64,000 nt of DNA from Ferrovibrio sp. MS7. Lineage in GTDB: Bacteria; Pseudomonadota; Alphaproteobacteria; Ferrovibrionales; Ferrovibrionaceae. Within the stretch, counting starts at the first letter, position 1. Each line of letters opens with the position of its first letter. The DNA is taken from contig NZ_JBBKBA010000004.1 in the NCBI RefSeq assembly GCF_038404985.1, positions 124,001-188,000 of the forward strand, read 5' to 3'. The notes beneath the pieces are model-generated. The model made no database searches. It had not been told where the DNA came from and saw nothing but the letters and a program-made list of their open reading frames with translations. Shown one piece after another: positions 27,201-46,567 of this stretch. A program made the position numbers and the translations under genes.

Positions 27201-30200
27201 GTGCCGTTGCCGGCAAAATAGATGGTTTCGTTGCCGGTGCTGCCGGTGATGGTCTCGATATTCGCCAGGGTAACGATGTTATCGCCCTTGGCCAGCGTCA
27301 GCGCATCATTGCCGCCAGCCAGATCGACCCGGCCATTCTTCAGTACGGTACCGAGCGTCAGCACGTCGCCATTGGCCGAGCCAATCACGGTTTCGATATT
27401 GGTCAGCGACAGGGTGCCGCCGGAATTGATGATCAGCGTGTCGTTGCCGGCGCCAAGATCGATCACCGCATTTGCCGGCTGGTTCGGGCCGAGCGCGATA
27501 GTGTCGTTACCAGTCGAGCCAATCACGGTCTCGATGTTGCTGATGGTGAAGGTGCTGCCACCAACGGCCAGGATCAGCTTGTCCTTGCCGGCGCCGAGAT
27601 CCATGTAGCCGTTAGTGATCACGTCACCAACAGTGATGGTGTCGTTGCCGGTGCCGCCAAGCACCGTCTCGGTGCCATACACGGTCTGGGTATTGGCGCC
27701 ATTGGCCAGCTTCAGGCTGTCATTGCCGGCACCGAGATCCAGGCTGATCGCCTTGGTCAGCGCCGCCTTCATGGTGATGCTGTCGTCACCGGCGCCGCCG
27801 ACCAGGGTTTCGACGCCCGCCACGGTCACGGCGTTGGCAGCGCCCGTCAGAGTCAGCTTGTCGAGGCCAGTACCGAGATCGACACTGCCAGTGCCGCTAT
27901 AGGTGACGGTATCGGCGTTGTTGCCGCCGGTCACAGTCTCGGCATTGGCGATAGTCAGGCTGTTGACGAAGTTGCCCAGCTTCACCGTATCGCTGCCGCC
28001 ACCGGCATCGACAAAGCCGTTGCTGATGCCGTTCATCAGCGTGATCTTGTCGTTGCCACTGCCGCCGATGATGGTTTCCACATTGGCGAACGAGGCCGTG
28101 TTGTTGCCGTTCGCCAGGAACACCTTGTCGAGGCCGTCGCCAAGATTGAAGCTGCCCTTGGCGGTAGTGACGTTGTTGTAGATGACGTCGTTGCCGCCGA
28201 GGCCGACCACGGTCTCGACATTGGCCAGAGTGAGCGTGTTGTTGCCGTTCGCCAGCGTCAGCTTATCGACGCCGCCGCCGAGGTCGATCACCGAGCTGCT
28301 AAGCCGGTCATCGCTCAGCGCAACGATATCGGCCGCGCTGCCGCCGGTCAGGGTTTCAATATTGGCCAGGGTGAGCATGCTGGAGACATTGCCCAGCACC
28401 AGGCTGTCCTGGCCGCCGCCGAGATCGACATTGGCCCGCGCTGATTTGTCGAGGCGGACGCTGTCATTGCCACTGCCACCAACGATCGTCTCGATGCTGA
28501 TCGCCGTGAGCGAATTGGCGACATCATCCAGGGTCAGGCTGTCGTTGCCGCTGCCAAGATCGACCTTGGCATTCTTCAGCGCACCGTCGATGGTGATTGT
28601 GTCGCCAGAGCCGCCGCCCGTGATGGTTTCGACATTGGCCACCGTGGCGCTGTTGGTGGCATGCGCCAGCTTCAGCGTATCGTTGCCGCCGCCGAGGTCG
28701 ATCAAGCTGCCGGATACACCGCCGCCGATAACGACATTGTCGGTGCCGGAGCCGCCGACGATGGTTTCGACGCCATTCGCTGTGACATTGCCGCCACCCG
28801 GATTCAGCGTCAGCTTGTCGTTGCCGGCGCCAAGGCTGACCGTGGTCTTGGTGGAGCCGGTGCCGAGGTAAATGTCATCGGCCTTGTCGCCGCCGATTAC
28901 CTGCTCGACATTGGCGAGCGTGACCGTGTTCGCGACATTGTCGAGTTCGACGCGGTCCGTACCCTTGCCGAGATCGATCGAGGCTTCACTGGAAATGGTG
29001 CCGGTAAAACGCACCGTATCGGCGCCAGTGCCGCCGACAAGAGTCTCGACATTCGAAACGTTGACGCTGTTGGTACCGTTGGCAAGCGCCAGCTTGTCAC
29101 TACCACCGCCAAGATCGAAGGTGCCAAGCCCAGCCGCCGACACGGTGACATAGTCAGCCCCGCTGCCGCCGATAACGGTGTCGACATTCTGCACCGAGAC
29201 GGAGTTGCCGCCATCGGCCAGCGTCAGCTTGTCGCCGCCACTGCGCAGATCGACCTTGCCGTTGGTGATATTGGTCTTCAGCGTCACATCGTCGTTGCCG
29301 ACGCCGCCGACGATGGTTTCGACATTCGCCAGATTGATGACAAAGCCGGTGCTGCTGTTCAGCGTCAGCTTGTCCTGGCCACCGCCGAGATCAACGGTAC
29401 TGTTCGTCTCCATCGCCGTCATGATGGTGACGTCGTCGTTGCCAGCGCTTCCTGTCAGCGTTTCGACATCGTAGACGGTAAGCTTGTTGCTTGCACCAGT
29501 CAGCGTCAGGCTGTCTTTGCCGGCACCAAGCGACACTACGCCGTTGCTGATGCCGCCACCCATGGTGATGTGGTCGTCGCCAGTGCCGCCGTAAATCGAT
29601 TCGACATTGGTCAGCGTCGTGGTATTGCCGCTATTGGCCAGGATGGCGATATCGGCACCGGCACCAAGATCGACATTGTGCTGCGTGCCGAGATTGGTCG
29701 TGAAGGTGACGGAATCGGCGGCCGTGCCGCCGGTTACAGTCTCGACGTTGCCGACCGTGACGCGGTTGCCGCCGGTGCCAAGCTGCAATTTGTCGGCGCC
29801 GTCACCCAGATCATAGAGCGCATCGAAGCTGCCGCGACCCAGTACAACCGAGTCGCTGCCGCTGCCGCCAAGCAAGGTATCGACGCCCGTGGCGGTGATA
29901 TTGTTGGTGCCATTGGCCAGGCGCAACGTATCGAAATCAAGGCCGAGATCGACCTTGGCATTGGCAGGCGCCGACAGCGTGATGTTGTCGACAGCGAGGC
30001 CGCCGGTGATGGTTTCGGCGTTGGCAATGGTCGCCGTGTTGGCGGCATTGTTGAAGATGATCGTGTCACTGCCAACACCGGTATCGATCGTGCCGTTGAA
30101 GGCTGTGTCAAATGTGATCTTGTCGGCACCATTGCCGCTGGCGACACCTTCGACATTGGACACATTGTACACGCCGCCGGCATTGCCGAACGTCACAGTA

Positions 30201-31889: not shown

Positions 31890-32019
31890 ACCACCCATCT
31901 ACCTGGAATCCAGAGGAAACCTCCACACCCTCCCGGCGGGTGCGAAGCCGGAACTGGCGCCATCAAACAGTTGTAGGTATCGCCGGGGAAAGCGCCCTCT
32001 ACAGGCGAATATCCCCGCC
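31890..32019 (+). ncRNA. Structured RNA-like element, possibly related to phage C4 antisense RNAs
   Basis: Three stems are visible on the plus strand. CCGGC/GCCGG closes a loop at 31933-31951. AACTG/CAGTT lies at 31952-31972. A nested pair, GGGG/CCCC (31985-31988 with 32013-32016) enclosing CGCC/GGCG (31993-31996 with 32004-32007), follows. From memory the primary sequence ('GGCGGGTGCGAAGCCGG', 'GCGCCATCAAACAGTTGTAG') resembles C4-type antisense RNAs of phages and prophages. I could not run a covariance search. It abuts insertion-sequence remnants. Confidence 0.4.
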
Positions 32020-32039
32020 CCGCCCCTGAAACCAGCCAC

Positions 32040-32446
32040 GATGGATTTGTTTCAGTATCTTTTTTCGCAAAGCGCTCAGGCAAGTTTCGGGCGGCACCCT
32101 GGCTGGCTTGCCCAAAAACATCGGCTCGACGAGTCGCCCGGTGCGGATATCGATTGGCAAGCGGTGGTACAGGTAGCCAGGTTCCGGCTCAGACATCAGG
32201 TGACCCCGGCCTTTGCGGATACCGACCAAATAGCCCTCGTCGGCCTCAACCTCGCCGGATAGCTCATAAGACGGCAGCTTGCTGGCAATCAGCTGGCGCA
32301 GGCGCATGAAAAACGGAGCGCCGTGTTCGGTTACCCCCAACCAGGTCAGTTGCAGCCCGAGCTGCCGTCCCAGCAATGAAATACTCCAGCAGACGGACTT
32401 GCTGACGCGAACTCAGGCGGCTCCGGCGGGAATACCGGGAATACAT
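32040..32446 (-). pseudogene. IS1595-family transposase remnant (frameshifted, truncated)
   Basis: Two minus-strand frames together recall the N-terminal third of an IS1595-type transposase. 'RSRLSSRQQVRLLEYFIAGT' and 'ARAATDLVG' lie in one frame (32446 to about 32340). 'FFMRLRQLIASKLPSYELSG' followed by 'EVEADEGYLVGIRKGRG' lies in the next frame, so at least one frameshift occurred near 32340. The DDE catalytic core further on is not recognisable. The element is dead, and I could not define terminal repeats. Confidence 0.65.
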
Positions 32447-32619: not shown

Positions 32620-33237
32620 TCAGCCCGGCCCTGTGCGAACATCGCCCACGTGACGCATGGAATGTATCTCGCCCAGCACGGCGTAGTTCGGTCCGCCAAT
32701 CCGACACACTGGCCGGAGGAGCGCCGTATCGATCTTGTTGGACTCGCACAGACCATCTCGGATGTGGAAAACCACCACCTCGCCGACGATGAATTCCGCG
32801 CCGGTTTCACCGAACTCGATGCTGCGCACGAACTTGCATTCCAGACTGATTGGCGTTTCTGCCAGATATGGCGTCTTGATTTTCTGGCTTGGCTTGACGC
32901 TGAAGCCCAGCAGATCGACCTCGCTGACATCGGGCGGATAGTCGATTGCGCTCTTATGAATGGCCTCGATCATTGTTTCGTCGCCGATGTTGACCACGAA
33001 ATCCTTGTTGGCCTCGATATTGAGCGATGTGTCCTTGCGTCGACCGCTGCGCAGGCCGACGTTGATTCCCACCATCGGCGGCTTCGACGAAACAAAGGTG
33101 AAGCAGCTGAAGGGGGCCAGATTTACAATGCCTCCAGGCCCCAGGGTGGAAACCCAGGCGATGGGACGGGGCACCACGATTCCAGTCAGAAGCTTGTAGA
33201 GCTCCTGAGGCTCGATGCCGTCAGGTATGATCTCCAT
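32620..33237 (-). CDS. Flavin reductase family protein (DIM6/NTAB, FMN-binding)
   Basis: The 205-residue protein has the flavin reductase-like split barrel: 'LTGIVVPRPIAWVSTLGPGG', 'NLAPFSCFTFVSSKPPMVGI', and C-terminal 'RIGGPNYAVLGEIHSMR'. Such proteins pass reduced FMN to a partner monooxygenase or act directly. The LLM-type oxidoreductase in the same cluster (44364-45395) is a plausible partner. It is the last gene of the transporter-regulator unit, nine bases after iclR. The final residues abut transposon debris and may be altered. Confidence 0.88.
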   Translation of the reverse strand: MEIIPDGIEPQELYKLLTGIVVPRPIAWVSTLGPGGIVNLAPFSCFTFVSSKPPMVGINVGLRSGRRKDTSLNIEANKDFVVNIGDETMIEAIHKSAIDYPPDVSEVDLLGFSVKPSQKIKTPYLAETPISLECKFVRSIEFGETGAEFIVGEVVVFHIRDGLCESNKIDTALLRPVCRIGGPNYAVLGEIHSMRHVGDVRTGPG

Positions 33238-33246
33238 ATTCCCCCC

Positions 33247-34059
33247 TCAATGCGGAACCGGCCTGGCCGCGCCTTCCTTCTCAACGGGCACGAATGCCGA
33301 GCCTGGATAGGCGCCGAGCTTCGTCGAAATGAGCGCAGCGGTCCTTTCGACGAGTTCTGCCAGACGCTTGTGTGAGTCAGCGTGGGCTTTTCCCTTCCCG
33401 ACGGCAGCACTGATAGCGGCAATCACTTCGCCTGGCGCATTCCGGATGGGCGCGCCGACGGCAAGAATGCCGACAAGGTTTTCTTCATCGGAAATCGCAT
33501 ATCCCCGCTCGCGAATCTTCTTGATATCGGCGAGGAGTTTTGCCGGCTCGGTAATGCTGTATGGCGTCAGGCGGGCAAGCACCATCTTCTGCATCACCTT
33601 TTCCAGCACCTCGTCCTGGAGAGCTGCAAGAAGAACCTTGCCTGCGCTTGTGGTGTGCAGATGACCCGTCGCCCCCGTATTGATGCGGAAGACAGAGGGC
33701 TGCGAACCCTGGATACTGCACAGATACAGGAGGGCGGTATCGCTTCGAACGCCGAGGTAGACATTCAAATGTTCTTCCTCGGCAAGTCGATGCAGTTCGT
33801 CGTAGGCCACACTGTAGAGCGGGTTGCTCTGCGTGTAGCGCTGACCGACCTGAAAGGCACGTGCTCCGACCCGATAGCGCCGCGTAACCGGGTTCTGTTC
33901 AAGGAAGCCCTGTTCGGCCAGCGTGTTGATAAGTCGCGACACAATGCTCTTGTCGAGATCCATAAGGCGTGACAATTCGCGAACCCCGATTTCGGGTCCG
34001 TTGTTGCTGACGACATCGAGGATGTGCAGCCCGCGCGATAAGGACTGGTTGGTTGTCAT
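33247..34059 (-). CDS. IclR family transcriptional regulator
   Basis: The 270-residue regulator has an N-terminal winged helix (about 5-60, 'GVRELSRLMDLDKSIVSRLI'). The C-terminal IclR effector domain (about 75-250) includes 'TTSAGKVLLAALQDE', 'RERGYAISDEENLVGILAVG' and 'APIRNAPGEVIAAISAAVGK'. It overlaps the permease stop by four bases, so it is co-transcribed with the transporter. The two bipartite operator-like sites at 36793-36829 and 46531-46567 are the natural candidates for its binding. The effector is presumably the imported substrate or an intermediate. Confidence 0.95.
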   Translation of the reverse strand: MTTNQSLSRGLHILDVVSNNGPEIGVRELSRLMDLDKSIVSRLINTLAEQGFLEQNPVTRRYRVGARAFQVGQRYTQSNPLYSVAYDELHRLAEEEHLNVYLGVRSDTALLYLCSIQGSQPSVFRINTGATGHLHTTSAGKVLLAALQDEVLEKVMQKMVLARLTPYSITEPAKLLADIKKIRERGYAISDEENLVGILAVGAPIRNAPGEVIAAISAAVGKGKAHADSHKRLAELVERTAALISTKLGAYPGSAFVPVEKEGAARPVPH

Positions 34060-34859
34060 GCACTTTCCACTGGAGGTTGCAATGCTCGGCCCGACTGCCG
34101 ATTCCCGTCCCAGTATATAACCCGACTCTGTACCGCGCGAATAACGATGTGCCCAATGATGCCAATCATCGACAGCGTGAATACGCTGGTGAACATGGTT
34201 CCAACGTCAAAATTCATCGACGATGCCTGGATCAGATACCCAAGGCCCTGTTTGGCCGCGACGAACTCGCCGACAACGGCGCCGATCAGGCCCAGCACGA
34301 TGGCAATCTGCAGGCCGGCGAAAATGGAATGTGCGGCGCCGGGCAGCTTCACATCCCAATAAACCAGCCAGCGCGGGGCCGAGAACGCCTTGTAGAGATC
34401 GAGCAGATCGGAATTGGTCGCACGCAGACCAGACAGCGTGTTTACGAAGACCGGGAAAAAGCAGATCAACGCAACGAGGATAACCTTGGAAGTCAGCCCG
34501 AAGCCGAACCACACGAGCAGGATTGGCGCCAGAGCTACCTTGGGCATCGACTGGAAGCCGATGACATAGGGAACGACGATCTGTTCGACAATTTCGAATT
34601 CGGCAACCAGGGAAGCAAGCAGGAAAGCAACCAGGCATCCGCAGGCATACCCCACCATCATCTCGGTCACGGTAATGCCGATATGCGGGAAGATCAGTCC
34701 GGTTGAGTACAGCTTGATTGCGGACTGCAGTACCGCGTATGGGCCGGGTAGCAGGTAGGCAGGCACGCCGAAAAGTACGGTGCCGTAATGCCAGAACAGC
34801 AAGAAGACGACGAGTGACAGAGCGGAGATGAGGCGACCCTTGAGCTTCTTCATTTTCAT
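34056..34859 (-). CDS. ABC transporter permease (SsuC/TauC/ThiX type)
   Basis: The 267-residue permease has about six membrane helices. The BPD_transp_1 coupling segment is 'IGFQSMPKVALAPILLVWFG', with 'GLRATNSDLLDLYKAFSAPR' after it. It belongs to the nitrate/sulfonate/taurine and pyrimidine-precursor import subfamily. It sits six bases after the ATPase gene and overlaps iclR. Confidence 0.95.
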   Translation of the reverse strand: MKMKKLKGRLISALSLVVFLLFWHYGTVLFGVPAYLLPGPYAVLQSAIKLYSTGLIFPHIGITVTEMMVGYACGCLVAFLLASLVAEFEIVEQIVVPYVIGFQSMPKVALAPILLVWFGFGLTSKVILVALICFFPVFVNTLSGLRATNSDLLDLYKAFSAPRWLVYWDVKLPGAAHSIFAGLQIAIVLGLIGAVVGEFVAAKQGLGYLIQASSMNFDVGTMFTSVFTLSMIGIIGHIVIRAVQSRVIYWDGNRQSGRALQPPVESA

Positions 34860-34865
34860 ACCGCC

Positions 34866-35645
34866 TTACAGATTTCTCTTCCCGGCCCCGAACATCTCGC
34901 GAAGCTTGTTCGCGACTTCGGAGAATCGGGGGCTGGCCATGGTGTCGAGAGTTCGCGGACGCTCCAGGTTGACATCCAGCTCCAGCACCTTGGTACCCGG
35001 ACGCCCCGACAGAACAACGACCTTGTCGGCTAAATAGACGGCTTCTTGGATTGAATGGGTGATGAAGACCACGGTCTTCCTGGTCTCCATCCAGATCGAT
35101 TGCAGCTCATCGGTCATGCGCTCACGGGTCAGTGCGTCGAGAGCTGCAAACGGCTCGTCCATCAGCAGGACGGCCGGGTCGTGAATGAGACCACGAGCGA
35201 TACCGGCACGCTGCTGCATGCCTCCGGACAATTCGTGGGGAAGATGGCCACCAAAATTTCCAAGGCCGACCAGATTCAACAGACGATCGGCTTCGACCTC
35301 ATACTGGGCCTTCGGCAGACGCTGGGCGCGGATGGGCACCAGCACGTTTTCGCGGACTGTCTTCCAGGGCAGCAGCGTTGGCTGCTGGAAGACAATACCG
35401 ACGTCCTTGCGTGGACCGGTGATCTTCTGGCCCGAAACCGTCACTTCGCCTTCAGCAATACCCAGCAGACCACTCACCACCTTGAGAAGGGTGGATTTGC
35501 CGCATCCTGAAGGCCCCAGGACCGCGACGAATTCACCTTTCCTCACCTGCAAATCGAGCTTGGAGAGCGCAGTAAGTGGGCCCCGCGTTGTCTCGTAAAC
35601 AACGGACATATTCTGGATGTTTAAGACAACGTCGGGGCTTTGCAT
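34866..35645 (-). CDS. ABC transporter ATP-binding protein (SsuB/TauB type)
   Basis: The 259-residue ATPase has Walker A 'GPSGCGKST' (about 43-51), Q-loop 'GIVFQQPTLLPW', signature 'LSGGMQQRAGIARGL', Walker B 'AVLLMDEPF', and H-loop 'VFITHSIQEA'. Together with the permease and the NMT1-type binding protein it forms a complete importer. Confidence 0.96.
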   Translation of the reverse strand: MQSPDVVLNIQNMSVVYETTRGPLTALSKLDLQVRKGEFVAVLGPSGCGKSTLLKVVSGLLGIAEGEVTVSGQKITGPRKDVGIVFQQPTLLPWKTVRENVLVPIRAQRLPKAQYEVEADRLLNLVGLGNFGGHLPHELSGGMQQRAGIARGLIHDPAVLLMDEPFAALDALTRERMTDELQSIWMETRKTVVFITHSIQEAVYLADKVVVLSGRPGTKVLELDVNLERPRTLDTMASPRFSEVANKLREMFGAGKRNL

Positions 35646-35676
35646 GACTACCTGGTCTCACATCTAGATGCTGGAC

Positions 35677-36780
35677 TTACTTGTAGGCCTTGGCCTTGCT
35701 AATGACCGCCGCGCGGTCAAATTTATTGTACTCGGGAACAAACTCGTTCGTGTAGAGCGTGTTGAGCGGGATATTGGCGTCCTTCTCGATCAAACCACCA
35801 ACCTTCAGAGCATTTATGAGGAGCTTCCAATCCTCTTCCGTGAAGGCACCCATGTTGGTCTCGTTCCGACCGGCGAGAAGGTTGGCCATGCGAGGCTTCA
35901 TTACCTCGACCTCCTTCTTCATGTTGTCGGCATCCGAGCCACTAGTCGGCTTCAGTTCGGGATACTGACGCCAGAACGACAAGATGCAGCCTTCCAGATT
36001 GGCGTTGCAGGCAATTGCCGCCTTCGACATCGCCCGGCCGAAGCGGATGACAAGGCCTGGGTTCTTTTTCAGCAGCTCCTCGGTAACCGGGAAGCCATGG
36101 CTAGAAAGATTCTGGTATTCCTTCGGGAACGGGATGCGGCGGATCTTGGTGCCCGTCAGCTCAAGCGATACATGGGCGGTGTCCCACAGGTTCAGGCCAT
36201 CGATGGACTTGCGGCGCAGCGCCTCGAAAGCCGGGACGCCCGAACCAGCGGCAATCTTTTGCACCGTGTTCCAGTTCACACCTTCACTCTGCGCCATCGC
36301 CTGGGTCATCGCGATATTGCCCGAGGTCAGCGACACGAAGCCGATCGTCTTGCCGCCGAAATCGCCCATCGTCTTGATCGGGCTATCTTCCAGCACCGCC
36401 ATCTCCCAGATGGAGCGCGGCAGGAAATTATAGACGAAGCGCAGCGGGAAGTTGGGCTTCCCCTCCTGGCGTGAGATCGGCAACGGCTCCAGGCTCGCAT
36501 AGGCCGAATGAATCGTGCCTGCCAGCAATTGGGGAATGATGACGCCCGATCCGGTCAGGACGATGATTTCGGCGTCGAGATTCTCCTCATCGAAGAAACC
36601 CAGAGCCTTGGCGAAGGTGAAATTGGCGGTGCCGGTATTCAGGGCCGACGGCCAGGCAAAGACAAATTTGTCTTTTGCGACAGCAGGTTGTGTGGCAAGT
36701 GCCGGAACCAGAACCGCAGCACCGATCAGGGCGCTCCGAAGCATATTAAAGCAGCGCGATACGCGTGGTGAAACTTGCAT
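35677..36780 (-). CDS. ABC transporter substrate-binding protein (NMT1/SsuA type)
   Basis: The 367-residue periplasmic protein starts at an ATG preceded by GGAGGGG. A Sec signal covers about residues 1-35 (ends PAVA). The mature part follows the NMT1/THI5-like fold: 'ALGFFDEENLDAEIIVLTGS', 'GDFGGKTIGFVSLTSGNIAM', and 'LNLWDTAHVSLE'. This family binds small N- or S-containing organics such as taurine, sulfonates and pyrimidine precursors. It is the first gene of the transporter-iclR-flavin reductase unit. A regulator-like site lies 13-49 bases upstream of its ATG. Confidence 0.93.
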   Translation of the reverse strand: MQVSPRVSRCFNMLRSALIGAAVLVPALATQPAVAKDKFVFAWPSALNTGTANFTFAKALGFFDEENLDAEIIVLTGSGVIIPQLLAGTIHSAYASLEPLPISRQEGKPNFPLRFVYNFLPRSIWEMAVLEDSPIKTMGDFGGKTIGFVSLTSGNIAMTQAMAQSEGVNWNTVQKIAAGSGVPAFEALRRKSIDGLNLWDTAHVSLELTGTKIRRIPFPKEYQNLSSHGFPVTEELLKKNPGLVIRFGRAMSKAAIACNANLEGCILSFWRQYPELKPTSGSDADNMKKEVEVMKPRMANLLAGRNETNMGAFTEEDWKLLINALKVGGLIEKDANIPLNTLYTNEFVPEYNKFDRAAVISKAKAYK

Positions 36781-36872: not shown

Positions 36873-39800
36873 TCACAAAAGCTCAATTGCTTTCGCGATA
36901 GCGCGTCGTGCGACATTGATGGTCAGTTCCGCCTTGTAGGCGTTGTCCTTCATCGGCAGAGCGCCGAATACCACTGACTTCGCCGCCTCGTCGATCAGGT
37001 CCTGAGATAGCGGATCAGACAGAAGGATATTCTCAGCGACCGGGATGCGGATTGGCTTCGGCGCCACGCCGCCCAGCGAGATGGCGACATAGTCGAGGCG
37101 GGCACGGGTTCCCGCTACATCAACCGCAGCCGAGGCTTCCGCGAAGTCACCAGCCCAGCGGGCGAATTTCTCGAAGTGGAAAGCGCTTCTGCGGGACGGC
37201 ACGGGAATATTGATTTCCGTGATGATTTCATCCGGGTCCAGGACAGTCTCACCAGCCCAGACATACAGCTCGCCAACCGGAAGTTTTCGCGTTCGACGCG
37301 GACCGACCACAACCAGATCGGCTTTCAGCGCGGTCATGATTGGCGCGAGATCCGAAACACACGGCGCGGCACAGCGCCCAGTTCCCATGATGGAATGGTG
37401 CCTGTTCTCGCCCAGCACGGCGTAACACGGGCATGCCGGCCCGGAAAAACGGTAGCAAGGCGTCGCCGACCTGAAGAACCAGCAACGCTTTTCCTGGCAC
37501 AGATCGCCAGCCACGGTGGCGCGGTTGCGAACGATAGGCGTCGCAATCTGCAGAATGGCATTCTTCAATGTCGGAAAATGAGTGTTGATAAGCTCGTCCT
37601 CAGCCAGAGCTGTCAAGGTGACGCCAGCGCCGACCCGAATGAAGCCTTCATCAAGTCGCATCTTCCGCATCGATGCGATATGGCCGACCGAAACCAACTG
37701 CCTGGGCGAGTAGATGCCCTGCTTTATGCCGGGGATCAGATCCGTGCCACCCGCGATGAGCTGGCTCTTGAGACCAGGAGTCGCAAGCGTATGAACCGCA
37801 GTCGCTATAGACTCGGCCTGGACAATTCTTTTCGGCGTGCTGGCATCGCGCGAGGCCCCGATGGCCTTGCCGAGTTTTTTCATCACGGGCGCCATCGCCG
37901 GATAGGCCTTGCGTACGGTCGCGATTTCGAGATTGCGCAACCGGCTGAGCGACTTCATATCCGGCAGAGGGGCATTTTCCTTCTTGCGCAGGGCTTCCAG
38001 AACCATTTCCGGCGTGATCGGAAGCTTGTGGAATCGAACACCCGTCGCATTGGCAACCGCATTCGCGATCGCGGCCACAGTGGCGTTGATGGTCGGCTCA
38101 CCGGCAGCCTTGGCGCCAAAGGGGCCCAGATTTTCTTCTGTCTCGACGAATTCGACCACGATGTCCGGCGTGTCGAGCATCCGGGGGACACGGTAGTTGA
38201 AGAGCGACCGGTTGATCGGTCGGCCGTCCTGGAACAGAACCTCCTCGCTCAGTGCCATGCCGATGCCCTGAACGATACCACCGTAGGTCTGCCCCTCCAG
38301 TGCCGTAAGATTGATGACCTTGCCGACGTCCTGGACAGAAGCAATCTTGAGGACTTTGACCCGACCGGTCTCCGGATCGACTTCGACCTCGGCCGTCTGG
38401 GCTGCAAACGCATACGAGGCGGCGTAATTACCAAAGCCGGTCTTTGCATCCGGCCGTGCCAGGTCGATTTCGTAGAAGCCCTCAACCTTCAGCGTGCCAT
38501 ATCGTTGAGCTGCCTGCCCAAAAGTCATGAAGTCCGGGGCATCCGGCCGCTTGAACCGACCGTCTGCATAGTCAATGGCATCAACCGGAACCGACCAATC
38601 GATGGCCAGATTCTCCTTCACCGCAGCCACCAGTTTCCTGCCGGCATCGAGGACCGCATTGCCGGTGACAAAGGTCACGCGGGAGGCGGCGCTGCCCAGG
38701 TCGTCAGGGCTCTCTTCCGTATCCATGTGCAGGACGTCGATCCGGCTCATCGGGATGCCGAGGGAGTCCGACAGGAGCTGGGCAAGCAGGGTATTCTGGC
38801 CGGTACCGGTGTCGGCAGTTTGCGTGCCGATACGGAAGGTTCCGTCGGGATACGCAACCAGAGCAATCCTGGAGAAATTGCCTTCGGCATAGAGAACGCT
38901 GCCGCTGGCATGAATCATCGAAGCAACCCCGACGCCGCGATACTTGGGCAGCTTGCCGTACTTCTCCTTCCAGCCAATCAGCTCGGCCGAACGCTTCAGA
39001 CACTCGTCCAGGCCGCAGGAGGTGATTTTCCAGCCCAGGATGGTTTCATCGCCCGGCTGATTGGCAATGCTCCGCCGATACTCCACAGGGTCCAGGCCGA
39101 GTTTCTCGGCGACTTCATCGACTTGGCTCTCGATCGCCCAGATGATGCCAGGTGCGCCCATACCCCGATACGAACCACCCGGAACCTTGTTGGTGTAAAC
39201 CAGGTTGGCCTCGATTGCCGCCGCCTTGACCCGATAGAGATTGGTGATGCGGTGGCGCATTGCCGAGATGTAGACTGGCCCCATATGGGTATAGGCGCCG
39301 TTGTCGACATGGGCATCCAGCGTCCGGCAAAGGATGTTGCCGTGTTTGTCCACGGCAGTACGCAGGTTCATATACTTGGCATGGTCGGTCTTGCCCGCGA
39401 GGTATTCCTCATCACGGCTCAGCACCACTTTGACCGGGCGGCAAGTTTGGATCGACAGGAGTGCCGCAATGGCAATCTGTTCCGGCGATTGCGACTTTCC
39501 GCCGAAGCCGCCACCAACCGCAACAGACCGGACGACGACCTTCTCGCGCTCGAACGGCAGGACACGCGCCAGTTCCTTACGGACAAAGAAAGGGGCCTGT
39601 GTGCCCGCCCAGATTTCCAACTTTTCTTCGCTCTTGTCGTAGGACGCGACCGCTGCATTGGTCTCCATGCAGACCGGCCAAACGATACCGTGTTCGAAAT
39701 GCCCCTCGACGATCAGGGCAGCTTTGCCGAACTCTTCCTCGACATTGCCGAACATTGCCGAGATTTTCTGGGCCACATTCCTGGGCAACCCATCCCGGAG

Positions 39801-40247
39801 CGGATGTATTTCATCGGCGTTGGAGCTGATCGCCTCAAAAACATCCAGGGCCGGCTTCCAGACCTCGTAGTCAACCTTGATGGCTCGGACCGCCTCGCGA
39901 GCAATCTCCAGGGTATCGGCGGCCACTGCCGCCACCTCCTCGCCATAAAACCGTACGCGGCCGAGAGCCATCGGGCGACGATCCGAGTAGCCGGCGCCGT
40001 AGTTGACGTATTGTGCGTCTGCAAAATCCGAAGCCGTGATGACGGCATGGACGCCAGGCATGGCCTTGGCGGCCGAGATATCGATGCTGCATATCTTCGC
40101 CGATGCATGCGGGCTGCGCAGAATAGCGCCATGCAGCATATTGGGAAGCGAGATATCGTGAGTGTATTTGGAGCGACCGAAAATCTTGTTCCGGCCTTCG
40201 ATCTGAGGGATGCGCCGACCGACGGTCTTTTCAAATACCTCAGACAT
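36873..40247 (-). CDS. Molybdenum hydroxylase: fused molybdopterin subunit plus FAD subunit with extra Cys cluster
   Basis: I start at MSEVFEKTVG (40247), whose ATG overlaps the stop of the 2Fe-2S gene (TGATG), giving 1,124 residues. Residues about 1-760 form the xanthine dehydrogenase-family Mo subunit, with 'GGGFGGKSQSPEQIA' near 247 and the catalytic Glu in 'GAKAAGEPTINA' near 715. After a linker, about 810-1120 form an FAD_binding_5 plus CO_deh_flav_C subunit. Between about 916 and 960 this part carries a Cys-rich loop ('CQEKRCWFFRSATPC', 'CPCYAVLGENRHHS', 'GRCAAPCVSD'). It resembles the [4Fe-4S] loop of HcrB and PaoB flavoproteins. Fusing Mo and FAD modules in this order is unusual. The substrate is unknown. 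Confidence 0.88.
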   Translation of the reverse strand: MSEVFEKTVGRRIPQIEGRNKIFGRSKYTHDISLPNMLHGAILRSPHASAKICSIDISAAKAMPGVHAVITASDFADAQYVNYGAGYSDRRPMALGRVRFYGEEVAAVAADTLEIAREAVRAIKVDYEVWKPALDVFEAISSNADEIHPLRDGLPRNVAQKISAMFGNVEEEFGKAALIVEGHFEHGIVWPVCMETNAAVASYDKSEEKLEIWAGTQAPFFVRKELARVLPFEREKVVVRSVAVGGGFGGKSQSPEQIAIAALLSIQTCRPVKVVLSRDEEYLAGKTDHAKYMNLRTAVDKHGNILCRTLDAHVDNGAYTHMGPVYISAMRHRITNLYRVKAAAIEANLVYTNKVPGGSYRGMGAPGIIWAIESQVDEVAEKLGLDPVEYRRSIANQPGDETILGWKITSCGLDECLKRSAELIGWKEKYGKLPKYRGVGVASMIHASGSVLYAEGNFSRIALVAYPDGTFRIGTQTADTGTGQNTLLAQLLSDSLGIPMSRIDVLHMDTEESPDDLGSAASRVTFVTGNAVLDAGRKLVAAVKENLAIDWSVPVDAIDYADGRFKRPDAPDFMTFGQAAQRYGTLKVEGFYEIDLARPDAKTGFGNYAASYAFAAQTAEVEVDPETGRVKVLKIASVQDVGKVINLTALEGQTYGGIVQGIGMALSEEVLFQDGRPINRSLFNYRVPRMLDTPDIVVEFVETEENLGPFGAKAAGEPTINATVAAIANAVANATGVRFHKLPITPEMVLEALRKKENAPLPDMKSLSRLRNLEIATVRKAYPAMAPVMKKLGKAIGASRDASTPKRIVQAESIATAVHTLATPGLKSQLIAGGTDLIPGIKQGIYSPRQLVSVGHIASMRKMRLDEGFIRVGAGVTLTALAEDELINTHFPTLKNAILQIATPIVRNRATVAGDLCQEKRCWFFRSATPCYRFSGPACPCYAVLGENRHHSIMGTGRCAAPCVSDLAPIMTALKADLVVVGPRRTRKLPVGELYVWAGETVLDPDEIITEINIPVPSRRSAFHFEKFARWAGDFAEASAAVDVAGTRARLDYVAISLGGVAPKPIRIPVAENILLSDPLSQDLIDEAAKSVVFGALPMKDNAYKAELTINVARRAIAKAIELL

Positions 40248-40750
40248 CAGCCGCACGCCTTCCGGACGGCTTCGATGATCTGGACGTAGCCGGTACACCG
40301 ACAGATATTGCCCTGCAATGCCATCTTGATATCTTGATCGGACGGGCAGCTATTTCGCTGCAAGAGAGCAGCAGCCGACATCATCATGCCCGAGGTGCAG
40401 AAGCCACACTGGAAGGCGCCGTTTTCCAGAAAAGCCTGCTGCAGCGCCGTCGCCTCGCCATCTGGCGAAAGACCCTCGATGGTCGTTACGCTCCGGCCAT
40501 CAATAGTGGCGGCAAGTGTCACGCAAGCGGGGACGGCGACGCCGTCGAGATGGACCGTGCAGGCACCGCATTCAGCGCTGCCGCACCCGATCTTCGTACC
40601 GGTCAGTTGCAGCCGCTCCCTCAAAACCTCGGCCAAGGACGCGAATGCCTGCACCTCGACCACTATATCCTTGCCGTTCAGATTGAACTGAACGAGGACG
40701 GTGTCGCCGGCTACCGCGCTTGCATTCGATATGGCCGCAGCTTCAGTCAT
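40247..40750 (-). CDS. 2Fe-2S subunit of the second molybdenum hydroxylase
   Basis: The 167-residue CoxS/XdhC-type ferredoxin subunit has a plant-type 2Fe-2S domain ('GCGSAECGACTVHLDG') and a C-terminal helical 2Fe-2S domain ('CGFCTSGMMMSAAALL', 'CRCTGY'). Its ATG overlaps the end of the upstream Mo subunit by eight bases, and its stop overlaps the fused Mo-FAD gene. It is the natural electron carrier of the fused enzyme. Confidence 0.95.
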   Translation of the reverse strand: MTEAAAISNASAVAGDTVLVQFNLNGKDIVVEVQAFASLAEVLRERLQLTGTKIGCGSAECGACTVHLDGVAVPACVTLAATIDGRSVTTIEGLSPDGEATALQQAFLENGAFQCGFCTSGMMMSAAALLQRNSCPSDQDIKMALQGNICRCTGYVQIIEAVRKACG

Positions 40751-43013
40751 GCAACAAAATCTTTTCTGCTGTAATAGGCAGGCTCATGATGCGCTTGCCC
40801 GTCGCACTGAAGACGGCGTTTGCTATCGCCGCTGGAGGTTGGATGGTCGGAGGTTCTCCCACTCCCTTCGCTCCATATGGGGTGGAGGTGGCAGGGTGCG
40901 TCACGAGGATAACCTCGATTGGCGGAACATCCATGGAAGTGGGCATCTTATAGTCTGTCATGTTTGCATTCATGACATGGCCGTCGACTATGACGAGTTC
41001 CTCGAATATCGCTTGGCCAATCCCCTGAACCGCACCACCTTCCAGTTGGCCTTCGAGGTTTGACGGATTGATCGCATAGCCAACGTCCTGTGCAACAACG
41101 TAGCGATTAATAGTAATCGCGCCCGACATCTCATCGACGCTGACATCTGCAGCATGAACATGGAAACTCGCCGCCGGCCATGCTGGCGAGTAGTGCTTGC
41201 TCACGCGTGCCGGATCATGTGCAACTGCGTCGGCGATATAGTTCGCCTCTGCGGTCAGCCCTCCCCCACCCATATTCGCCGTGGCGGCCAGCTCGGCATA
41301 AGTGATTTTCTTTCCATTCGCCGAAAAGCCTTTGCCGCCGAGTTCGAGATCGACCTCAGCTACGCCAAGGGCCTTGGCGGCCATCGGACGCAACTTCTTC
41401 ATCAGGTTTTCCCCCGCCATGCGTGCGGCGTTGGCGACCGTAACCATGGTGCGGCTGCCTTGAGAACCGAAATCATATGGAGTGGTCTGGGAGTCCGCGC
41501 TGACGACCGTGATGTCCGAAACATCGACGCCCAGGTCTTCGGCGAGAATCTGAGCCACACCAGTCAGAGCGCCGGTGCCTAGTTCAACCACCCCGACCAT
41601 CAGGGTGAAGACTCCACCGGATGACAGCTTCAGGTAAGCCCCCGATGAGCCACGGGAGGTCATCCATGCCGCGCAGGCCAGGCCCTTGCCACGATTCTTC
41701 TCCGGGTTCCGCTTATCCCAGCCGATGGCTTCAGCCGCCTTGAGCAGGCATTCTTCCAGACCTACCTGGGTCATCACCTGGCCGGTCGGACTCAGATCGC
41801 CTTCATGAATGATGTTGCGCAGACGAATCTCCAACGGGTCGATACCCAGATCGTGCGCGATGATGTCCATCTGGGATTCAGACGCGAAGTTTGACATCGG
41901 ACCGGACGGGGCGCGTACTGAGCCGGTCGGATGGTTGTTAGTGTATATCGAGCGCCCTTCGATAAGAAGGTTGGGCAGCTTGTATGGACCAGCCAGTAGC
42001 GTGACACCTGTCGAGGCAATCAGCGGGCCGGAACCTGAAGCGGCACCGGTATCGACCAGAAGTCTGCCTTGTTTGGCGATAATGCGGCCTTCCTTGTCGA
42101 CACCGGTCTTCAACCAGATATGAGCTGGCTGCCGGAACAGTGCCGCAGACAGCTCCTCATGCGAAGTCGACATCACGCGCACAGGCCGCCTCGCCGCATG
42201 AGCCAGAGCCAGCGCGAAATGCTCCATGCCAATGCGCAGCTTGCCGCCAAAACCGCCCCCAATCGCCGGGACGATAACGCGGACTTTTCCGGGCGAGATA
42301 CCGAAGATTTCGGCAAGACTGCTCTGGGTATCGAACAGTAGCTGGGCATTGGACCAGACGGTGGCATCACCGTCGGGCGTCCATTGTCCCACAGCCACGC
42401 GCGGCTCGGTATAGCCGGCATGCACCGGGGCGGTACGGAAGGTGTGCTCGTAGACGCGGTAACTGTCCTTGAAGCCTTGCTCAACATCACCGGCCTTGAT
42501 GACTGTTACGCTCGATTGATTGCCGTCGGGGGTCGCAAGCGGATGACCCTTCAGGTTCTTCAGATCAGGATGAACCAGCGGCGCACCTTCTTTGATCGCC
42601 TCCGTCAGTTCAAAGACAGCCGGGAGCGGCTGATATTCTATCTCAATCAGACCAAGCGCCGCCTCCGCGATAGCTTCCGTATCCGCAGCAACAGCCGCAA
42701 TAGCCTGGCCGACATACTTCACCTCGCCATCGGCGAAAACTTCAAAATCCTTGATGAAATTGCCATAGAAATTGAGCTTCATGGTCTTCGCGGACACAAT
42801 GGCTCGCACCCCCGCAAGGGCCAGAGCCTTCGAAGTATCCAGACGAATAATTCTGGCATGGGCCTGGGTACTGCGGAATACGCGGCCATGGAGCATTCCA
42901 GGCAGAGTGAAGTCAGCAGCGTAAATCGTGGCTCCCTGAACCTTTGAAGACGCGTCAATGCGCTTGTGGCGGCTGCCTATCAGACGGTTATTGCTCAGAA
43001 GACCTGCGCTCAT
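40743..43013 (-). CDS. Molybdopterin-binding subunit of the first molybdenum hydroxylase
   Basis: This 756-residue xanthine dehydrogenase/CoxL-family Mo subunit has the aldehyde oxidase a/b hammerhead domain (about 15-130). 'GGGFGGKLRIGMEH' lies near 253, and the catalytic Glu is in 'GAKGVGEPPTIQPPAAIANA' near 715. With the separate FAD and 2Fe-2S genes just upstream it makes a standard three-subunit hydroxylase that adds water-derived oxygen to a carbon of a heteroaromatic ring or aldehyde. The CoxL-specific active-site loop AYRCSFR is not evident, so CO oxidation is unlikely. Confidence 0.93.
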   Translation of the reverse strand: MSAGLLSNNRLIGSRHKRIDASSKVQGATIYAADFTLPGMLHGRVFRSTQAHARIIRLDTSKALALAGVRAIVSAKTMKLNFYGNFIKDFEVFADGEVKYVGQAIAAVAADTEAIAEAALGLIEIEYQPLPAVFELTEAIKEGAPLVHPDLKNLKGHPLATPDGNQSSVTVIKAGDVEQGFKDSYRVYEHTFRTAPVHAGYTEPRVAVGQWTPDGDATVWSNAQLLFDTQSSLAEIFGISPGKVRVIVPAIGGGFGGKLRIGMEHFALALAHAARRPVRVMSTSHEELSAALFRQPAHIWLKTGVDKEGRIIAKQGRLLVDTGAASGSGPLIASTGVTLLAGPYKLPNLLIEGRSIYTNNHPTGSVRAPSGPMSNFASESQMDIIAHDLGIDPLEIRLRNIIHEGDLSPTGQVMTQVGLEECLLKAAEAIGWDKRNPEKNRGKGLACAAWMTSRGSSGAYLKLSSGGVFTLMVGVVELGTGALTGVAQILAEDLGVDVSDITVVSADSQTTPYDFGSQGSRTMVTVANAARMAGENLMKKLRPMAAKALGVAEVDLELGGKGFSANGKKITYAELAATANMGGGGLTAEANYIADAVAHDPARVSKHYSPAWPAASFHVHAADVSVDEMSGAITINRYVVAQDVGYAINPSNLEGQLEGGAVQGIGQAIFEELVIVDGHVMNANMTDYKMPTSMDVPPIEVILVTHPATSTPYGAKGVGEPPTIQPPAAIANAVFSATGKRIMSLPITAEKILLHD

Positions 43014-43016
43014 GGT

Positions 43017-43481
43017 TTACTGTCTCGCCTGTGCTGCGGCCTGCACGGCCTCGACGATCTTGTTGTAACCGGTGCAGCGACAGAGCGTGCCGCACAGTCC
43101 TTCGCGGATTTCCTCGGCGCTTGGATTCGGCAATTCATTTAGAAGACCGGCCGCCGTCATCACCATGCCGGGAATACAGTAGCCACATTGCACGGCATCA
43201 CAGCTTACGAATGCCTCTTGAATCGGATGCATCTTGCCGCCGACCGCCATGCCCTCGATAGTCGTGATTTTCCGGCCTTCGCACTGGGCGGCAATCAGGA
43301 TGCATGAGTTCACCGATCTTCCATCGAGGAGGACGGTACAGACGCCGCATTCAGCCTCGAGACAATTCTGCTTGGTTCCGGTGAGAAAAAGCTTGTCGCG
43401 CAGGACTTCCAGAAGCGTCGCACTATCCTCGATTTCGAGGTCGTGAATTTTGTTATTGATATCGAATTTGACCTTGAGCAT
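43017..43481 (-). CDS. 2Fe-2S subunit of the first molybdenum hydroxylase
   Basis: The 154-residue iron-sulfur subunit has 'NCLEAECGVCTVLLDG' in the ferredoxin-like domain and 'CGYCIPGMVMTAAGLL' with 'CRCTGYNKIVEAVQ' in the helical domain. It is one base from the FAD subunit gene and three bases from the Mo subunit gene, so all three form one enzyme. Confidence 0.95.
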   Translation of the reverse strand: MLKVKFDINNKIHDLEIEDSATLLEVLRDKLFLTGTKQNCLEAECGVCTVLLDGRSVNSCILIAAQCEGRKITTIEGMAVGGKMHPIQEAFVSCDAVQCGYCIPGMVMTAAGLLNELPNPSAEEIREGLCGTLCRCTGYNKIVEAVQAAAQARQ

Positions 43482-43482
43482 T

Positions 43483-44367
43483 TCAGCCTCTCAGCGCATT
43501 GGATATGTCGGTCAGCGCTCGGTTGACACTGCCCTCAATGACCTTGCGGCGGTATTGATCAGAGGCACGGACGTCTGTGCGCGGCGTGCAATCCTCACAA
43601 GCGGCGATCTTGGCCGCCTCCGCGATGATTGCGGCGGTGAGGTGCTGCTCCCTGAGGGCGACTTCCGCCTTAACGGCACGCAGTGGCTTTGGACCCACGG
43701 CACCGAGCGCGATACGCGTCGATAGAACCTTTCCGTCGGCATCGGCATTCACCAGCACCGCGACGGAGGCAACGGCGATTTCCATCGCTTTGCGACGCCC
43801 GATCTTGATGAAATCAGTCGCATAGCGGTTACCGCCATCCGTGAAGACACCGGGCTTCGGGATTGCGATACCCTGGATGATCTCATCTTCCCTAAGTATC
43901 GTTTTGCCCGGAGCCAGGAAGAAGTCATCAATGCTAATGGACCGAGTGCCGCCATTGCCCGTGACCATGACACTGGCGCCAAGGCCCAGTAGAGCAATGG
44001 CGACATCGGCTGCCGGGGAGGCATTCGCGATGTTGCCGCCGATAGTGCCGACGTTGCGGACCTGATGGCCGCCTACGACACGGGCTGCCTTGCACAGTGC
44101 CGGAAAATCAGCCTGCAGGCCCGCATGGCTTTCGATATCCTTGTGGGTGCAAAGGGCCCCGATCTGATAGCCGGTCGAATGCTTCTCGATTTGCTTCAGC
44201 CCGGTCATGCCTGATAGGTCGATAAGCTCTGGGCAGACCCGGATGCCGCGGCGCAACTGCACCACAAGGTCCGTGCCGCCAGCGATATACCGGCAATGCC
44301 CAGCATACCGTGCCGCCAGGGCAATGGCCTGGGACATGCTTGCCGGCCGATGGAGCGTGAACTTCAT
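43483..44367 (-). CDS. FAD-binding subunit of the first molybdenum hydroxylase
   Basis: The 294-residue CoxM/XdhB-type flavoprotein has 'RYIAGGTDLVVQLRRGI' and 'VRNVGTIGGNIANASPAADV' for FAD pyrophosphate binding, and a C-terminal CO_deh_flav_C domain. Unlike the fused enzyme next door, it lacks the Cys-rich insert. It overlaps the LLM oxidoreductase gene by four bases. Confidence 0.94.
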   Translation of the reverse strand: MKFTLHRPASMSQAIALAARYAGHCRYIAGGTDLVVQLRRGIRVCPELIDLSGMTGLKQIEKHSTGYQIGALCTHKDIESHAGLQADFPALCKAARVVGGHQVRNVGTIGGNIANASPAADVAIALLGLGASVMVTGNGGTRSISIDDFFLAPGKTILREDEIIQGIAIPKPGVFTDGGNRYATDFIKIGRRKAMEIAVASVAVLVNADADGKVLSTRIALGAVGPKPLRAVKAEVALREQHLTAAIIAEAAKIAACEDCTPRTDVRASDQYRRKVIEGSVNRALTDISNALRG

Positions 44368-45395
44368 TTCAGGGCCTCGCTGGCGGCGGGCCAGACTTCG
44401 GTCGCGAACTTCTCCAATGTGGATGCGACGTCGTATCCCTTGGCAGGCAGCACAGAGACGATCACACCATTCATACCCACGGCGAACAGGCCCTTGAGCT
44501 GTGCCGTGACTTCAGCCGGGGTGCCGCAGAGCGAAATGGCGCGAACCATATCCTGAGTCACGTCCTGCTTGATGATCTCGTATGGCGCGGCCCCAGCTTT
44601 GTAAGGGACGTCGGCGACTTTCGCCTTGACCGCATCGCTGAGTTCCAAGCCTTGCCGGGCCAGGGTCTCGAAGTGGGTACGTCCAGAAGCCAGCGTCCGA
44701 GCGGCACGCAGGCGCAGCGCATCGAAGGCATCAGAACTGACTTCGCTTAAGGACAGATTCAGACGGACGATGCACTTCACCGATTTCGGATCGCGGCCCT
44801 TCTTGGCGGCCGCCTTGTCGATACGTGCGCGCATGCTGGCGGCTTCTTCAGCATTGCCGCAGCCTTCCATGATGCAGGCATCGGCGTACGAAGCGGCCAT
44901 GTCCTGACCAAGCGGGCCATTGCTCGCGACCCAAATCGGGAGATCCTTGCGGGTCGGCTTGAATCCCAGCTTACCTGCATTGAACTGGACAACTTCACCC
45001 TTGTAGGTAACCTCTTCGCCAGTAGAGAACTGGCGGATAAATTCGATTGCTTCCCGGATCGCGCGGGCGGGTTTGGCGCGCGGGACGCCCATTTCAGTGA
45101 ACCCCGAAACACCGGCGCCCAGGCCCAGGATGGCACGGCCATGGGAAATGTCATCGAGCGTGTGAATGGCCATGGCGGTGAGAGCCGCATGGCGGGAATA
45201 CGGATCGGTGACGCACGGACCGATATTGATTTTCTCAGTCTTTGTGGCGATCAGGGTGAGCAGCGAATAGACCTCGCGATAGAAACGCTCGTCGGCAATC
45301 CAGACATCGGTGAAGCCGAGCTTCTCTGCTTTGACCGCCAAATCAGAGAGAGTGTGCGGGTCGCTGAGACCTGCCATCAGAAGGCCGAGCGTCAC
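44364..45395 (-). CDS. LLM class flavin-dependent oxidoreductase
   Basis: The 343-residue luciferase-like TIM-barrel protein reads 'AEKLGFTDVWIADERFYREV', 'INIGPCVTDPYSRHAALTAM', and 'ISHGRAILGLGAGVSGFTEM'. This looks like the branch containing F420-dependent methylenetetrahydromethanopterin-reductase-like enzymes. An FMN-dependent monooxygenase fed by the cluster's flavin reductase, or an F420 enzyme, are both possible. It overlaps both neighbours by four bases, so it is tightly coupled to the hydroxylase genes and probably acts on the same pathway. Confidence 0.9.
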   Translation of the reverse strand: MTLGLLMAGLSDPHTLSDLAVKAEKLGFTDVWIADERFYREVYSLLTLIATKTEKINIGPCVTDPYSRHAALTAMAIHTLDDISHGRAILGLGAGVSGFTEMGVPRAKPARAIREAIEFIRQFSTGEEVTYKGEVVQFNAGKLGFKPTRKDLPIWVASNGPLGQDMAASYADACIMEGCGNAEEAASMRARIDKAAAKKGRDPKSVKCIVRLNLSLSEVSSDAFDALRLRAARTLASGRTHFETLARQGLELSDAVKAKVADVPYKAGAAPYEIIKQDVTQDMVRAISLCGTPAEVTAQLKGLFAVGMNGVIVSVLPAKGYDVASTLEKFATEVWPAASEALK

Positions 45396-46525
45396 TGTCT
45401 TTCCTCCACTGGGACATAATCGATGTCGAAGCCGTAATGCCGGGGGCCATGTGCTGCGACGATCTCGGGAACCCGAAGCTGCTTTGGCGCAGGCGTTGCG
45501 ATGATGGAAACATCCATGCCTTCCTGGATGTTCGTGTTGGTGTCCGACTCGCCGGTTCGGCTATCATGAATGGTGATGAGGTCGGGGGACGTGGCTTTCA
45601 CTTCGCCATCGATCCAGAGAATGTGATTCTCGTTTTTCAGCCAGATGCGGGCTTTGCTACCGTTCGGCGCCTCGATGTAGAGGTCGCCATACATGTAACC
45701 GTCGCGTGATTCCCAGACTTTCTTGACGATACGGCCAGAATGCAAAATGTAGCCGTTGAGATATTCGGCAATGCGCTTCACCGGATCCTCACCTGCCTGG
45801 CGCGCCGCGGAAATGGTGCGGCCGAGGTTCAAGGCACGTGTCAGATTGCCGCCGATGGCATGCTTCTTCAGCGTCCTGCCATCGACAACGAAGGCCGCAC
45901 GGGCACATTGCGCTTTCATATCGGCCGCCTTCGTGACCGTACTGATGGCCTTGCCCAGGCGTTCGCCCAGCACGCTCGAATTGCAGCCGGTAACGGTCAG
46001 CGACATGCCCCAGGGATCGGCATAGGAGGCCGGGGCGAACGGAACGCCAGCGAGCGCGATCAGGTTTTGCGACATCTCTGGAATGGCCTTGCCGGCGCAA
46101 TCGCAGTCGACCATGTCGATGCCAGCCGCCATGGCCGCAGCCAGCGGCGTGGTGGAGTTGCCAGCGCCCAGCTCGATGGGATAGACGCCTGTGACCGTCT
46201 TGCCGAGATGGGCTTCCAGCGTACGGAGGGCCAACACCATCGGCGGGGTCGTCAGTTGCTTGGTGGGGTAGCCGTTGGATACCAGCTGCTCCTCGGTCAT
46301 CGGTGGGACCGGCGCAATCGAGCCGATACCTGACAGCGAGCAGAAGAGCTCATCGTCGCCAACCGTATCCAGGTCACGCCAGCGAGGGACCACCCCCTTC
46401 TCGATCAGGGGCATCAGGGCGTCTCGGCCGGCATCGATACGACCACCGCCGCCGGTGCCGTAAATAGTCAGTCCACTGATGAAATCTTCAACATCCCGGG
46501 GGCTGGTAAGTTGTCCGTTGGGCAT
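45392..46525 (-). CDS. DUF917 family protein (S-methyl-thiohydantoin desulfurase type)
   Basis: I start at the ATG at 46525 (MPNGQLTSPRDV). The frame extends to a TTG at 46549, but that lies inside the operator-like site. The 377-residue protein shows family marks 'SGLTIYGTGGGG', 'YPIELGAGNSTTPLAAAMAA', 'DMVDCDCAGKAIPEMSQ', and a beta-rich C-terminal half. DUF917 proteins occur beside hydantoinase-like genes, and part of the family is named for S-methyl thiohydantoin desulfurase. It leads the seven-gene hydroxylase operon. The substrate is unknown, but the family points to a five-membered N-heterocycle. Confidence 0.85.
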   Translation of the reverse strand: MPNGQLTSPRDVEDFISGLTIYGTGGGGRIDAGRDALMPLIEKGVVPRWRDLDTVGDDELFCSLSGIGSIAPVPPMTEEQLVSNGYPTKQLTTPPMVLALRTLEAHLGKTVTGVYPIELGAGNSTTPLAAAMAAGIDMVDCDCAGKAIPEMSQNLIALAGVPFAPASYADPWGMSLTVTGCNSSVLGERLGKAISTVTKAADMKAQCARAAFVVDGRTLKKHAIGGNLTRALNLGRTISAARQAGEDPVKRIAEYLNGYILHSGRIVKKVWESRDGYMYGDLYIEAPNGSKARIWLKNENHILWIDGEVKATSPDLITIHDSRTGESDTNTNIQEGMDVSIIATPAPKQLRVPEIVAAHGPRHYGFDIDYVPVEERQ

Positions 46526-46530
46526 AGCCT

Positions 46531-46567
46531 GTCTCTCAAATAGGGACAATGTCTTATATGTAGAGAC
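46531..46567. promoter_or_regulatory. Bipartite operator-like site upstream of the hydroxylase operon
   Basis: GTCTCT at 46531 is followed 20 bases on by GTCTTATATGTAGAGAC (46551-46567). It shares GTCTNNNATNTNGAGAC and the spacing with the site at 36793-36829. It lies 6-42 bases upstream of the DUF917 ATG, where a promoter is expected. The IclR protein of the cluster is the likely binder (inference). Confidence 0.65.

Follow-up and report, generated by a model that had tools for sequence, protein, structure and literature searches.

The fused gene and its neighbours

The window that we analysed, a 64,000-nucleotide stretch of DNA from Ferrovibrio sp. MS7, contains a gene cluster that lies entirely on the minus strand, from a DUF917 gene (46549) to a flavin reductase gene (32620). 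Within it, a single uninterrupted ORF (36873..40247) encodes a protein of 1124 aa in which a molybdopterin module (residues 1-757, 37977..40247) is followed by a linker (residues 758-806, 37830..37976) and by an FAD module (residues 807-1124, 36876..37829), the latter carrying a cysteine-rich loop (residues 917-963, 37359..37499). The molybdopterin (Mo) module was delimited by Pfam, alignment to HcrA and a structural model, the linker by alignment and the model, and the FAD module by Pfam, its PDB relatives and the model. The ATG of the fused gene overlaps the TGA of the gene for its partner, a 2x[2Fe-2S] subunit (40247..40750) with Pfam domains Fer2_2 and Fer2 above cut-off, and a homolog of this partner gene is immediately upstream of the fused gene in 8/8 loci examined.

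All Pfam domains of the fused protein scored above cut-off: Ald_Xan_dh_C (24-129), MoCoBD_1 (153-392) and MoCoBD_2 (425-694) in the Mo half, and FAD_binding_5 (808-1016) and CO_deh_flav_C (1024-1119) in the FAD half. The defining features of the xanthine oxidase family were recovered, since residues 245-251 read GGGFGGK, E717 pairs with the catalytic Glu726 of HcrA in the alignment to 1rm6_A, and the two [2Fe-2S] centres are accounted for by Fer2 and Fer2_2 of the separate gene at 40247-40750. The first-pass annotation had described a Mo module with an intact catalytic Glu and GGGFGGK motif joined to a flavoprotein module, and both parts of that description hold, the second also through fused homologs found elsewhere. 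The protein is thus a Mo-then-FAD chain of the xanthine oxidase family, with the 2Fe-2S gene separate.

The nearest solved Mo subunit is HcrA (1rm6_A, 401 bits in the PDB comparison), and the model of the Mo module aligned with 1rm6_D at Z 43.8; PaoC is only about 29% identical to this module in a structural alignment. The closest PDB chains of the FAD module are flavoprotein subunits, namely 5y6q_B, 1rm6_B (HcrB) and 5g5g_B (PaoB). A model of the FAD module alone aligned with 5y6q_B at Z 36.8 (316/330 residues), with PaoB at Z 34.9 (306/316 residues) and with HcrB at Z 34.1 (306 residues), and 282 residues were aligned with the cluster-free CutM. The linker holds a predicted helix (770-796) and a motif common to the alphaproteobacterial and actinobacterial homologs.

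The fused protein stayed below the cut-off of every curated family model tried. It scored 561 bits against 994.55 for HcrA (TIGR03194) and 163 bits against 404.55 for HcrB (TIGR03195), both models of 4-hydroxybenzoyl-CoA reductase (4-HBCR), 291 bits against 1180 for PaoC (NF041671), and, with the xanthine dehydrogenase XdhA models, 512 bits against 780 (NF043082) and 484 bits against 916 (NF007426).

A second, ordinary three-gene hydroxylase is encoded in the same cluster; Pfam assigned its Mo subunit (40743..43013), its 2Fe-2S subunit (43017..43481) and its FAD subunit (43483..44367), which has no Cys loop and reads RNVGTIGGNIANASPAADVA at the loop position. Next come a luciferase-like, Mer-like oxidoreductase (44364..45395), probably F420-dependent, and an S-Me-THD-like (DUF917) protein (45392..46549, Pfam). 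On the other side of the fused gene are an ABC transporter (34056..36780), composed of an NMT1-like binding protein identified by Pfam and an ATPase and a permease recognised from their ORF sequences, and an IclR-type regulator with a flavin reductase-like protein (32620..34059, Pfam). A twelve-gene synteny block in the same order, including the transporter genes, IclR and flavin reductase, is found in a Xanthobacteraceae MAG (G398), and much of the same gene set and order is found in a congener (G006), as far as the contig reaches. The transporter, the second hydroxylase, the Mer-like oxidoreductase and the DUF917 protein suggest that a small heterocyclic or aromatic compound is taken up and degraded in several steps.

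Elsewhere in the window, positions 15233-31312 hold one ORF of 5359 aa with short Gly/Asp/Asn-rich repeats, probably a large secreted or surface protein, and positions 31999-32376 hold a short ORF that, judged by eye, resembles an insertion-sequence transposase fragment. The genome as a whole (4.6 Mb) has at least 15 large-subunit molybdenum hydroxylase matches covering most of the Mo module.

Authenticity, distribution and descent of the fusion

An ORF of this kind could arise if a frameshift, a misassembly or an annotation artefact had joined two genes. Nothing in favour of such an origin was found. An intact fused copy, 98% identical, is present in a second, independent genome of the species, and the genome of the window itself encodes two further fused paralogs of full length, with identities of 52% and 50%. 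Two fused homologs each are present in the congener (65% and 50%) and in the Xanthobacteraceae MAG (64% and 50%), and one in Streptomyces atratus (37%). In total, fused homologs were found in six genomes; in a seventh, another actinobacterial genome, the Mo module continues into the same linker before the contig ends. Intact copies in the conspecific genome, in paralogs, in other genera and in a second phylum exclude an artefact, to which we give a negligible chance, and the genuine join that the first-pass annotation had assumed is confirmed.

The fused form is rare. With at most two candidates scored per genome and only strong matches taken, so that distant fusions could be missed, the fusion was seen in 1/276 genera sampled within its class, in no further genome of a Pseudomonadota-wide sample of 378, and in 2/346 genomes of an actinobacterial sample, one of the two being the starting genome. 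Plasmid records gave separate Mo subunits only and no fused relatives. Single-ORF Mo-FAD fusions outside this fused family were absent from the loci fetched, a sample biased by the queries.

A 22-row tree places the fused Mo modules together on one side of a split with support 94. Because they group in this way and the linker is recognisable across two phyla, a single old fusion event is likely, as the simplest reading of the sequences rather than as proof. Between the two conspecific genomes both halves are under strong purifying selection, with a dN/dS of 0.06 for the Mo half and 0.19 for the FAD half.

Whether the fusion matters to the enzyme is a separate question. It may represent a neutral joining of adjacent genes that left an enzyme acting like any three-gene hydroxylase, a reading that we take seriously and place somewhat below an even chance. 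Between the conspecific genomes the linker changes fast (4 nonsynonymous against 1 synonymous substitution, counts too small to weigh), and one survey mentions FAD-Mo subunit fusions in hundreds of organisms, giving neither their order nor their function (PMC6147048); both points are compatible with neutrality. However, the fused form has been kept in paralogs, in several genera and in two phyla, and its linker helix can be recognised among them. This retention argues for upkeep of the fusion, but not for a special role.

The cysteine loop and a predicted [4Fe-4S] cluster

Seven cysteines are found within 47 residues of the FAD module, at positions 917, 922, 931, 939, 941, 959 and 963; the first-pass annotation had counted eight near 916-960, one too many. 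The clustering is not due to chance, since 0/20,000 shuffles of the protein placed seven Cys within 47 residues. Over an alignment of 32 FAD modules, comprising fused and PaoB-like sequences, exactly four of the seven are invariant (C922, C931, C941 and C959), and they correspond to the four conserved Cys in the inserted loop of PaoB/HcrB-type subunits. Together with the nearest PDB chains given above, this bears out the likeness to HcrB and PaoB that had been noticed at first reading. The other three cysteines (917, 939 and 963) are present in most fused members and vary among the sequences: in Streptomyces, residue 939 is Ser and residue 963 is Thr, and in a Xanthobacteraceae copy residue 963 is Asn. 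C939 was considered as the third ligand and dropped in favour of C941, in view of the Ser at 939 in Streptomyces and of the spacing from C941 to the G-x-x-R/H motif that follows it, which equals that of PaoB.

An additional [4Fe-4S] cluster is established for PaoABC and 4-HBCR by the work of Unciuleac et al. (2004) and Correia et al. (2016), as these are reported in PMC3958847 and PMC13404670. Because its four invariant Cys match the PaoB/HcrB loop, the FAD module likely binds a [4Fe-4S] cluster as well, with C922, C931, C941 and C959 as putative ligands. The loop could instead have lost its cluster and have become a structural, disulfide or zinc site, the FAD then passing electrons straight to NAD or oxygen. 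In most fused members the three extra Cys make the loop crowded, which could favour such other chemistry, and the loop is poorly modelled (pLDDT below 50 with the full-length protein and about 60-75 with the FAD module alone). However, only the extra Cys vary, fused and unfused proteins alike keep the four PaoB-type Cys without exception, and the loop shows no amino acid change between the two conspecific genomes; we therefore regard loss of the cluster as unlikely.

Starting from the observed domain make-up and the conserved cysteine quartet, we infer the cluster itself, the electron path with its direction, and the substrate. The fused protein is, with good probability, the catalytic and flavin subunit of a xanthine-oxidase-family hydroxylase, a Mo-linker-FAD chain with a predicted [4Fe-4S] cluster and electron path. 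The usual Mo and FAD subunits would have become one chain, in the order Mo-linker-FAD, and this chain with the separate 2Fe-2S protein would be the two-gene counterpart of the PaoABC/HcrABC trimer. The substrate would be oxidised at Mo, an oxidative hydroxylase being the most likely activity, and electrons would leave Mo by way of the two [2Fe-2S] centres, reach FAD and move on to the [4Fe-4S] cluster, which could provide a one-electron contact with an outside carrier other than NAD. Electron flow could also run in reverse, as is known for 4-HBCR.

Relation to known enzymes and a possible F420 link

HcrABC (1rm6) supplies the nearest solved Mo subunit, and its FAD subunit HcrB likewise carries an extra [4Fe-4S] loop; however, HcrABC is encoded by three separate genes, and the HcrB loop differs from that of the fused protein in length and Cys spacing. 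PaoABC (5g5g) and the Methylobacillus aldehyde oxidase (5y6q) share the same four loop Cys and are the closest folds for the FAD module, but they too are products of three separate genes. Xanthine dehydrogenase, from eukaryotes and Rhodobacter, has the same three modules overall, but in the order FeS-FAD-Mo or as FeS-FAD plus Mo, and its FAD part is without the Cys loop. The first-pass annotation was therefore correct in stating that a Mo-FAD chain with a separate 2Fe-2S subunit departs both from xanthine dehydrogenase and from the three-gene form.

No description of this order with a separate 2Fe-2S subunit was found in the literature searched, which lay mostly outside subscription journals. 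A PaoABC-like protein of polar Flavobacteriaceae has been presented as a possible fusion retaining the four [4Fe-4S] Cys (PMC13404670, preprint 2026); it is said to align with the whole of YagTSR, so that it would include the 2Fe-2S part, and we set it apart by this description only. As the extra [4Fe-4S] of PaoB/HcrB-type subunits is already known, the new part is the order within one chain together with its setting.

Part of that setting points towards coenzyme F420. The top PDB matches of the Mer-like protein (44364..45395) are F420-dependent methylene-tetrahydromethanopterin reductases, although its score with the NCBIfam Mer model was 192 bits, below the cut-off of 276. Mer-like luciferase-family genes adjoin both the window cluster (cluster A) and one of the two paralogs in the same genome (paralog C, G000:C2:868944-879508), and paralog C lies just upstream of genes for FbiC, F420-dependent G6PDH, CofD and CofC, all above cut-off. 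CofD is 6 kb from the equivalent of paralog C in the Xanthobacteraceae MAG and 22 kb from it in the congener. Among well-covered genomes bearing the fusion, a small and partly related set, CofD is present in 4/4, against 57/385 sampled genomes of the class. In the stretches read, no Mer-like or F420 gene neighbours the other paralog (B) or the Streptomyces copy.

Some further observations were made at these loci. The F420 gene set beside paralog C looks complete, its host being an alphaproteobacterium. The Xanthobacteraceae MAG (3.4 Mb) has three CofD copies, on C1 and C2. In two genomes a DUF1177 protein is encoded between the Mer-like and 2Fe-2S genes of paralog C (L119:9486-10481, L123:8424-9341), and in Streptomyces atratus urease alpha and fused gamma-beta genes are directly downstream of the fused gene (L124:7417-10367).

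The F420 link is one of gene position and co-occurrence, and use of F420 by the fused enzyme is a guess. The fused enzymes could be part of catabolic clusters linked to F420 and could give electrons to this coenzyme or take them from it, directly or via ferredoxin; they would then be the first molybdenum hydroxylases with such a tie. We hold this proposal to be unlikely. Alternatively, F420H2 may serve the Mer-like enzymes only.

The Mo-FAD order shows that xanthine dehydrogenase does not represent the only way in which the modules of this family can be joined, and here the [4Fe-4S] loop has been retained. With just two genes, the system would allow the electron route beyond the flavin to be probed. 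A 2021 review leaves open why some Proteobacteria make F420 (PMC8498797); if the F420 link were true, that question would have a first answer.
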